9,715 bases of DNA from an uncultured Clostridium sp. (GTDB lineage: Bacteria; Bacillota_A; Clostridia; Lachnospirales; Lachnospiraceae): contig USQV01000019.1 of assembly GCA_900556965.1 (NCBI GenBank), positions 1 to 9,715 on the forward strand, read 5' to 3'. The position numbers and the translations under genes were made by a program. Under the pieces are notes generated by a model. That model was not told where the DNA came from, ran no database searches, and saw only the letters and a list, made by a program, of their open reading frames with translations. How positions within the stretch are numbered: the stretch's first letter is position 1; each line of letters opens with the position of its first letter. Below are positions 7,512 to 9,493 of this stretch, one piece after another.

Positions 7512-7611
7512 GTTTATTATTTGTATATCTATATAATGTTTCTTTTTCGTCATTATTTACAACAACGAGGCACACCTCAAACACGTTCGGGATTTTTTGT
7601 TCTATATAGAG
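7512..7611. other. Gap between operon promoter and upstream terminator; no gene seen
   Basis: This roughly 100-base stretch upstream of the operon promoter holds no credible coding sequence. Two small symmetric sites are visible: GAGG/CCTC around a 4-base centre (7567-7578) and the 10-bp palindrome TCTATATAGA (7601-7610). Either could be a protein-binding site, but both are short enough to occur by chance. Confidence 0.3.
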
Positions 7612-7612
7612 C

Positions 7613-7672
7613 AAAAAAGAGCGCCGCCCGACCATCAGATCTTATAAGATCCGGCAGTCGGGCGACGCCCTC
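7613..7672 (-). terminator. Strong intrinsic terminator of the amidohydrolase transcription unit
   Basis: GC-rich arms CGCCCGAC (7625-7632) and GTCGGGCG (7657-7664) pair perfectly and extend outward with a few mismatches to about 7619 and 7672. Between them the top of the stem includes the palindrome GATCTTATAAGATC. On the minus strand the stem is followed directly by a run of six T (7618-7613). The plus strand lacks a T run on the other side, so the terminator serves minus-strand transcription from the amidohydrolase gene and the structured element and insulates the transport operon. Confidence 0.85.
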
Positions 7673-7689
7673 ATAAAAAAGAAATAGTC

Positions 7690-7846
7690 AAGCGGATATT
7701 CGCAATCCGCTTCGCTACGCGGCTCTACACCGAATAACTGCTCCGCAGTTTATCAGAAGGAGCTTGCGCTCCTCCTGATACAAGCAAGTCCCCACCCACT
7801 GCTTATTGCTTTTCGCAATTAAAGCAGGGGACTTACTTGATTCGGT
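7690..7846 (-). ncRNA. Candidate structured RNA element: four-way junction with no linker bases, plus a 3' hairpin
   Basis: Closing helix P1 is ACCGAAT (7729-7735) with ATTCGGT (7840-7846). Inside it, three hairpins fill the space with no base left between them: 7736-7750 (AACTGC/GCAGTT), 7751-7780 (TATCAG plus AGGAGC with partners) and 7781-7839 (CAAG and AAGTCCCC with partners, an inner stem and a 6-base bulge). A separate 8-bp hairpin lies at 7690-7712 (AAGCGGAT/ATCCGCTT). On the plus strand two helices hold A-C or C-A mismatches (7757/7774 and 7785/7835). On the minus strand both become G-U wobbles, and the 7764-7767 loop becomes the GNRA tetraloop GCAA. This supports an RNA read from the minus strand. 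The element lies 16 bases past the amidohydrolase stop and before the terminator, so it is either a 3' UTR element or a separate small RNA. It could also be one copy of a dispersed non-coding repeat. I do not recognise a named RNA family. Confidence 0.5.
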
Positions 7847-7861
7847 TAAAAAGAGGATCTT

Positions 7862-9493
7862 TTAGTTTCTCTGATATACAATTTCTCCGCCTAAGATGGT
7901 GGCGTCTACCTGAACCTTCGGCAGTTCTTCCGGATCCACTGCACATGGATCACGGTCTAAAATAACCATATCAGCTAATTTTCCTTCTGTGATGGAACCT
8001 TTGATATTTTCTTCAAAAGCAGCATAGGCGCCGTTGATGGTGTAGAATTTAAGTGCTTCCATAACGGTTACTTTTTCATGTGGATTCCATGGAGCAAGTT
8101 CCGGATGATCCAGACATTTTCTTGTAACAACTGCATAAATTCCGCAGAATACATTGGGAGTTTCTACCGGAATATCAGAGCTGGCATTTAAATTGACACC
8201 CAGATCCGTCAAAGTGCGCCATGCATGGCAATATTTTGCCCGGCTGCCCAGACGGTCTTCCATAATCGGAATATCGGTAGAAGTGGATGCCGGCTGAATA
8301 TTGATATTAAGTCCCAGTTTAGCAATTCTCTTGTAGAGTTCCAGATTACCTACCTGACCGTGAACCAGACGATGACGGTGATTTTCCTTGGGGAAGTTCT
8401 GCAGAACGCGTTCATAAGCATTTAATACCTGCTCTAAGGCACCGTCTCCGATGGTATGAATGCATACCTGCATGCCGGCACAGTGAGCTTTGCGGATATT
8501 GTCATACAGCTCGTCATCGGTGTAATAGTAGATTCCGGTGGTTCCTGGTGCATCGGAATAGGGTTCTTTCATACCGGCTGTGCGGGCACCCATGGTTCCG
8601 TCCGCCCACTGTTTCATCGGTCCGATATGATAGAAATCATGTCCCATGCCGGTACGCAGAGAACAGCCCTCTAAGAATTCATCTACTTCTTTTCCGGTTG
8701 GAAGAGAAATCTTTTGATAGATGCGGAGCGGAAGCTTTTTATCTGCAGCCAACTCCTGGTAGGCCTGGTAAATATCCATAAAGTCGCCCGGATATCCTAA
8801 ATCATAGGTGTCTTCTGTATGTACGGTTGTTATACCGTAGCGGAGCATTTCTTCGCCGCCGCGGATAATAGCCTGTTTTAATTCTTTTCTGGCTGATTCG
8901 GGATTGCGCTGGCGTTTAAACCATTCCAGAGCTGCTTCACGGATAACACCATTAGGCTCTCCGTCTTCTCCCTTATCAAACTGTCCGCCTGGGAGATATG
9001 TTTCTTTTGTTACCTTTGCATCCGTCAGGGCCATGGTATTGGCGATTCCTACATGTCCGCAGGTACGGATAATAAGAATCAGATGCTTATCGGATACTTT
9101 GTCCAGATCCTCTTTGGTTGGAAAAGCACCGCCTGGGAAGATGTTCTGATTCCAGCCGCGGCCAAATACCCATTCTCCTTCTGGTATCTGTTTCTCTTCG
9201 ATGAAGTTTTTGATTCGTTCGCACATTTCTTCGCAAGAGAGACAGTTTTCAAGATTTACATATCTCAGGGAGTTACCATAGCCCACAAGGTGGGTATGGG
9301 TATCATTGAAACCTGGAACGATGGTGCGTCCGCCCATATCAATTACCCGGGTATTCTCTCCCTGCCAGGATTCAATTTCCTGATTGGAGCCTACCTTAGC
9401 AATCTTATCACCGGCGATAGCGACAGCCTCCTCCACACGGCCGTCCATGGTGTAGATTCGGGCATTTTTAAGAACCATTGTTGTCTGCGGCAT
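7862..9493 (-). CDS. Metal-dependent amidohydrolase, YtcJ-like (Amidohydro_3)
   Basis: This 543-residue cytoplasmic protein has the usual length for the YtcJ group. Residues 1-60 and the C-terminal part form the small beta-sandwich, with the entry strand motif GGRTIVPGFNDTHTH (54-68). The barrel carries metal ligands His66 and His68 in that motif, Lys294 in MKQWADGTMG, His346 in CIHTIGDGA, His378 in LVHGQ, and Asp440 in NASSDIPVE. RTCGHVGIAN (143-152) and GEPNGVIREAA (178-188) are further YtcJ-type blocks. The C-terminal GSITEGKLADMVILDRDP (499-516) is the standard amidohydrolase ending. No signal peptide is seen. AAGGAGG (9507-9501) lies 7 bases before the ATG. Known relatives hydrolyse amide or ester bonds in varied substrates, including N-acyl and formamide-type compounds, so the substrate is open. 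It is transcribed separately from the transport operon, with a terminator between them, so a shared pathway is possible but not shown. Confidence 0.93.
   Translation of the reverse strand: MPQTTMVLKNARIYTMDGRVEEAVAIAGDKIAKVGSNQEIESWQGENTRVIDMGGRTIVPGFNDTHTHLVGYGNSLRYVNLENCLSCEEMCERIKNFIEEKQIPEGEWVFGRGWNQNIFPGGAFPTKEDLDKVSDKHLILIIRTCGHVGIANTMALTDAKVTKETYLPGGQFDKGEDGEPNGVIREAALEWFKRQRNPESARKELKQAIIRGGEEMLRYGITTVHTEDTYDLGYPGDFMDIYQAYQELAADKKLPLRIYQKISLPTGKEVDEFLEGCSLRTGMGHDFYHIGPMKQWADGTMGARTAGMKEPYSDAPGTTGIYYYTDDELYDNIRKAHCAGMQVCIHTIGDGALEQVLNAYERVLQNFPKENHRHRLVHGQVGNLELYKRIAKLGLNINIQPASTSTDIPIMEDRLGSRAKYCHAWRTLTDLGVNLNASSDIPVETPNVFCGIYAVVTRKCLDHPELAPWNPHEKVTVMEALKFYTINGAYAAFEENIKGSITEGKLADMVILDRDPCAVDPEELPKVQVDATILGGEIVYQRN

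Follow-up and report, generated by a model that had tools for sequence, protein, structure and literature searches.

The locus and its predicted fold

The window, by which we mean the whole 9,715-nt stretch of DNA that was analysed, begins with a minus-strand tRNA gene truncated at the window edge (1-51). It carries on the minus strand a group of genes that we take to be a peptide-transporter operon and, in the same orientation at 7862..9493, a neighbouring gene whose product is presumably amidohydrolase-like. The intergenic region studied here contains an almost perfect palindrome at 7593-7618 (TTTTTTGTTCTATATAGAGCAAAAAA), a terminator-like feature at 7618-7671 made of a long imperfect palindrome and then an A run, and, downstream of these, the element at 7687..7850. 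The limits of the element are the common ends of its copies in other genomes and include a target TTAAA at the right edge. Its folded strand is the minus strand, 5'-TTTAA-CC...CTTGAC-3', which is also the sense strand of the amidohydrolase-like gene, and 11 nt separate the stop codon of that gene from the TTTAA side. At the opposite end, the 3 nt GTC (7687-7689) separate the element edge from a perfect minus-strand hairpin with an 8-bp stem and a 7-nt loop (7690..7712). The tetranucleotide GTAG (7715..7718, minus strand) lies 2 nt 5' of this end hairpin; it resembles the guide tetranucleotide of REP and IS605 systems and varies among copies. A four-way junction occupies most of the remainder up to TTAAA (minus TTTAA) at 7846..7850, a single pentanucleotide that probably pre-existed as the target, as empty sites of three other family members suggest.

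The first-pass annotation had described the interval 7729-7846, where it saw four helices that meet without an unpaired base and tile the interior exactly, and it held that random sequence seldom behaves in this way. Both statements were reproduced. Minimum-free-energy RNA folding of the plus strand returns this tiling, with a closing stem of 7 bp (P1, arms 7729..7735 and 7840..7846), interior hairpins of 15, 30 and 59 nt (hairpin 1, 7736..7750; hairpin 2, 7751..7780; hairpin 3, the long arm, 7781..7839) and zero unpaired bases at the junction, at -54.6 kcal/mol (z -9.6; equalled by 0/200 shuffles). The minus-strand fold is more stable (-64.7 kcal/mol, z -10.5), and the minus strand gives the stabler fold in 34 of 37 element copies. 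A zero-linker junction with at least four arms and a span of at least 80 nt arose in 2 of 2000 dinucleotide shuffles of the minus strand of 7729-7846, and one of the same size in none of 2000 118-mers drawn at random from DNA stretches of four related genomes. The zero linker holds for the window's own fold and is not strict across copies, being predicted in 26/37 on the minus strand and 21/37 on the plus strand. An Rfam covariance-model search gave no match for the region at E up to 1, in agreement with the earlier remark that it could not be matched to a named RNA family. Judging from the sequences of the copies, the structure at 7729-7846 is the interior core of a larger unit, 7687-7850; the narrower coordinates fall short because the ends that homologous copies have in common lie at about 7687 and about 7850.

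Compensatory change and the folded strand

For the analysis of covariation, 51 copies of 155-175 nt were reduced to 37 by dropping any copies from the odd loci L012, L089 and L103 and near-duplicates more than 96% alike, and were aligned on the minus strand. The structure tested was that of the window with two outer pairs added to P1 from the consensus, so that this helix counts nine pairs and the whole structure 51 pairs and 1877 cells. Pairing is kept in 95.2% of these cells across the 37 copies, and it falls to 35-44% when partners are slid by 1-3 columns. Double changes are found at 24 of the 51 pairs (148 cells) and 0/500 shuffles reach any of the five measures, figures that are not probabilities since the copies are related. 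At least one doubly changed pair occurs in each of the six helices, one of which is a single pair: 4/9 pairs in P1 (helix 1), 4/6 in hairpin 1 (helix 6), 6/13 in hairpin 2 (helix 5) and 10/23 in hairpin 3 (helices 2-4), whose base CAAGNAAGTCCC/GGGACTTNCTTG is conserved on the minus strand. The aligned copies support the view that the fold is upheld by compensatory change; the first-pass annotation, which had proposed covariation in homologues as a check, was right about a selected fold and drew its extent too small.

The wobble pairs point to the minus strand as the strand kept foldable, because G.T exceeds A.C there (67 vs 23 cells, 24 vs 4 pairs, counted on the 49 pairs that are most often Watson-Crick), a result somewhat favoured by the derivation of the reference structure from the minus strand.

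A dispersed repeat with defined ends

A distant DNA search of phage records returned eight unannotated human-gut contigs with copies ('phage' being the depositors' label). At least 120 stretches of genome contigs match 22 nt of the end hairpin exactly, and their titles name Lachnospiraceae or other Clostridia/Eubacteriales, which bears out the earlier choice of Lachnospiraceae as the source of homologues. The host taxonomy is that of the contig titles, which name Blautia, Eubacterium ramulus, Fusicatenibacter and relatives. The element is a dispersed repeat, with 9 to 50 matches per genome in 12 of 12 genomes that were picked for holding a copy; in seven of them the figures are matches among the best 40 candidates and mean at least that many. 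Three broader searches, which considered the best 2 to 5 candidates per genome under strict E limits and give lower bounds, returned element-part matches in at least 9 of a sample of 299 genomes in G001's family, at least 12 of 64 in the genus to which G002 (a Blautia luti genome) belongs and at least 2 of 391 in the class. When the window's flanking locus served as query against the 299 family genomes, transporter parts matched in six and element parts in nine, and the locus and the element were found together in none of the 299. The amidohydrolase-like gene, used as a query, gave no related locus, and a search of a plasmid collection gave no match. Two sites of one genome carry identical 163-nt copies.

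The element has defined ends. Its conservation extends to GTCAAG on the left and GGTTAAA on the right, and outside there is little or no base preference apart from a mild T-richness on the left. A recognisable right end was found within 260 nt for 95 of 133 hairpin matches. These patterns are partly a matter of construction: most copies were collected with the hairpin 7690..7712 as bait, which contributes to its constancy, and the right end was located by motif search, which contributes to the right-end logo. Inverting one end, GTCAAGCGG..., does not give the other, ...TTCGGTTAAA, so that there are no terminal inverted repeats. A looser collection holds 128 copies with both ends, 115 of them non-redundant, among which 48 measure 160-169 nt and 29 at most 52 nt. 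In many short copies the end hairpin is joined straight to CTTGATTCGGTTAAA. These forms (at most 52 nt) likely stem, in many cases, from internal deletion between short direct repeats that left both ends in place, because the segment that they lack is flanked in full copies by ACTTGC on its left and by ACTTGC or ACTTAC on its right. A search for a recurring gene beside the element returned largest clusters of open reading frames that looked like ordinary genes.

The family also varies in other ways. A second subfamily (L374, L369) has the end hairpin GCGGATAAAANCATCCGC or a similar one in place of GCGGATATTCGCAATCCGC, with the interior and right end alike. In some copies (L015, L065, L089) the end hairpin and the junction are separated by one more hairpin module (GATCATAAGGAATCCTCCCGC...TATGAT or a similar one), four loci of one genome (L036, L078, L086, L116) have a hairpin-like insert of about 25 extra nt before the junction, and nested or tandem copies occur, e.g., at L083 and L089. 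The end-hairpin sequence did not appear in the literature searched, and the titles and abstracts found, a set lying outside ISfinder and most subscription papers, do not describe such a family. PMC3733652 has no mention of Clostridi-, Lachnospir-, Blautia, Ruminococc-, Firmicutes or phytofermentans.

Insertion site and orientation

Seven copies were compared with related loci as candidate empty sites, the junctions being read by eye, and three comparisons were readable. The first copy of L094 reads CAGGCAT-element-TTAAAGAGTTTGG against CAGGC[CT]TTTAAAGA in L222 and L223; L064 reads AAGA-element-TTAAAC against AAGATTAAAAAC in L244; and L055 was set against L239 (about 79% alike). The second and third copies of L094, L037 against L220/L221, and L121 against L255-L257 were unreadable, and some relatives in the L064 and L055 comparisons were unusable, owing to a deletion in L245 and to a diverged copy at the same position in both L243 and L240. 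All three readable empty sites have TTAAA where the right end of the element lies, with no target duplication. From these three loci, all of them different from the window's own, we infer that insertion adjoins a pre-existing TTAAA (minus TTTAA) that is retained once. Many copies come immediately after a gene: simple ORF calling finds 58 cases of a gene end on the TTTAA side, and in 15 of these the TAA of TTTAA serves as the stop codon. Pairing of TTTAA with the opposite P1 arm might serve as target-guide pairing, which we regard as no more than a possibility because the window's subfamily pairs little of TTTAA, less than most copies do.

The folded strand is the lagging-strand template for 38 of 40 copies on four assembled chromosomes with sampled GC skew (G366, 15/15; G321, 6/7; G319, 13/14; G314 contig 4, 4/4). 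This set comprises pattern matches with at most one mismatch, two on G314 contig 3 being excluded for want of a skew; G366 and G319 start at a gene that, from its translation, we take to be dnaA. Among diverged copies additional to the 40, three in G314 agree with the strand rule and two in G366 near 4.636 Mb oppose it. The orientation might merely follow the genes, because leading-strand genes dominate: of the 86 copies flanked on either side by a called gene, 48 lie between co-directional genes, and these are sense in 39 cases and antisense in 9. It appears to be set by replication rather than transcription, because 14 of 15 copies between opposed genes in G366 and G319 obey the replication rule (28/29 overall).

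Interpretation and rival explanations

We consider it highly probable that this is a non-autonomous, PATE-like element with IS200/IS605-type movement and a conserved four-way junction as its interior. It carries no gene and appears to move at replication forks in the form of single-stranded DNA (ssDNA); support for this mechanism is good as far as the strand and the target are concerned. The IS200/IS605-type reading rests on a combination of traits: neither inverted repeats nor duplication, TTTAA present once, structured ends on one strand, and orientation to the lagging strand. In the part of PMC7290912 available to us, IS200/IS605 elements are described as having no terminal inverted repeats or target duplications and inserting 3' of a fixed tetra- or pentanucleotide, and the accessible part of the review PMC5371812 has their orientation follow replication. 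The latter text also reports an orientation bias in Tn7 and other families, so that this trait is not unique to IS200/IS605, and in the former the Halanaerobium IS605 copies show no strand preference (10/22 on the leading strand).

The proposed mechanism would start with the minus strand, 5'-TTTAA-CCGAAT...GTAG-CG-hairpin-CTTGAC-3', becoming single-stranded on the lagging-strand template during replication. It would then adopt its two folds, the four-way junction close to the left end and the hairpin at the right one, as read along this strand, and a putative Y1-type (HUH) TnpA acting in trans would recognise the folded strand, with the junction serving as the left-end recognition structure. 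The element would leave its site as a single strand and be inserted 3' of a different TTTAA, again on a lagging-strand template, with no duplication of the target. In this scheme we infer the single-stranded intermediate, the identity of the enzyme as TnpA, the hairpin to which it binds and the part played by the junction.

The enzyme was sought in the 12 element-bearing genomes. Y1 genes (PF01797) occur in 11 of them (59 matches), and none among 30 of the 59 matches is bounded by element ends; the element-rich G007 has no PF01797 match and one weak match to the RAYT model, below cut-off. The RAYT model NF047646 scores above cut-off in 0/12 genomes, with weaker matches in 6/12. TnpB-type matches are found in 11 genomes (61 matches), none among 30 of the 61 being bounded by element ends or the end hairpin, and the element-rich G005 has no TnpB match. 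A Y1 gene with a copy about 190 nt away (L141) and two TnpB loci with a copy nearby (L268, L270) were read as chance neighbours. One element-rich genome encodes a 188-aa RAYT-like protein (L229:1357-1923) whose HUH motif looks degenerate by eye, possibly a domesticated Y1 protein. The mover may have been lost, may be present intermittently or have diverged too far, or may be one of the remaining Y1/TnpB matches. Which enzyme moves the element is the question raised by element-rich genomes in which no matching transposase was seen.

The first-pass annotation had preferred a folded RNA to a cruciform DNA. The fold is most simply explained by ssDNA, because in its ends, its target, its lack of target duplication and its replication-strand bias the element matches a single-stranded DNA transposon; an extruded double-stranded cruciform is likewise less simple. 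An RNA role, whether additional or sole, is unlikely in our judgement, and it would take the form of a functional minus-strand RNA such as an omega-RNA-like guide scaffold, its transcript extending past the junction and the end hairpin into flanking sequence; a TnpB nuclease supplied in trans, with TTTAA as its motif, would cut empty sites and so keep the element. The one-strand fold and its tolerance of G.U-type wobble fit this, but ssDNA also shows G.T wobble. In the 39 of 48 copies mentioned above, both neighbouring genes have the folded strand as their sense strand, and it is probably often co-transcribed, yet the replication bias can account for this sense bias. The motif of a TnpB generally equals the target motif of its transposon, and TnpB-type matches are widespread in the 12 genomes; against this stand the element-rich genome without one and the 30 of 61 matches among which none is terminated by the end hairpin. 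We give a similarly low chance to a transposase-free ssDNA element with a bifunctional junction, which would both present the left cleavage site as ssDNA, with TTTAA part-paired to the opposite P1 arm as a built-in guide, and be a co-transcribed RNA scaffold for an in-trans nuclease that defends the element's own insertion sites.

Two other known classes fare worse. The end hairpin could be a REP moved by a domesticated TnpA-REP, which we regard as very improbable. In the window, as in many copies, the minus strand has GTAG placed 2 nt 5' of a perfect hairpin with an 8-bp stem, which recalls the REPs of PMC8266576 and PMC6006769, as far as the available parts of these papers describe them. However, the constant GTAG or GTGG expected of a REP is not kept, other copies having GCAG, GTTG or GTCG at this position; the RAYT model gave the below-cut-off matches described above; and it is unlike a REP to form a defined unit of about 164 nt and to have a fixed target. 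Slightly less probable still is a classical MITE of a DDE transposase, or the substrate of another recombinase, e.g., a folded attC-like site. The element is indeed short, non-coding, dispersed and structured, and its GTTAAA fits an integron-type core-site pattern, but it has no terminal inverted repeats or target duplication and its replication-strand orientation is strong. If, as we favour, the element moves in the IS200/IS605 manner, tiny protein-free single-strand transposons would be numerous in gut commensals, and so small an element could keep a covarying four-way junction and closely mark the direction of replication.

Comparison with known systems

The element shares with the REP/REPIN-RAYT systems, in the available descriptions (PMC8266576, PMC6006769), a GTAG-like tetranucleotide before a hairpin, a high copy number and a mobilisation thought to occur in trans, and differs from them by its defined unit and target, the variability of GTAG and the lack of a RAYT above cut-off in the 12 genomes. 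The closest likeness is to PATEs, which the accessible part of PMC3119063 describes as having no inverted repeats or duplications, near-terminal palindromes and repeat-mediated core deletions, one family going down to 52 bp. Like the PATEs of Haloquadratum walsbyi (PMC3119063) and the PATE-like Halanaerobium sequence in the available part of PMC7290912, our element has neither inverted repeats nor duplication; like PATEs, too, it has palindromes near its ends (the hairpin 7690-7712 and the junction 7729-7846), is too short for a transposase and undergoes core deletion that leaves about 50 bp. Unlike those PATEs, as far as they are described there, it resides in Lachnospiraceae at 9 to 50 matches per genome (12 genomes), has a covarying four-way junction as its interior, and came without a related IS605-type parent among the Y1/TnpB matches examined; the missing parent and the junction are what sets it apart from PATEs. 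With IS200/IS605 elements such as IS608 and ISDra2 it shares insertion 3' of a short fixed motif that is kept once (PMC7290912, in part), orientation to the lagging-strand template (PMC5371812, in part) and structured ends on one strand. Unlike them, it carries neither tnpA nor tnpB, and its left end is a four-way junction instead of a simple hairpin of the kind that IS608 has.
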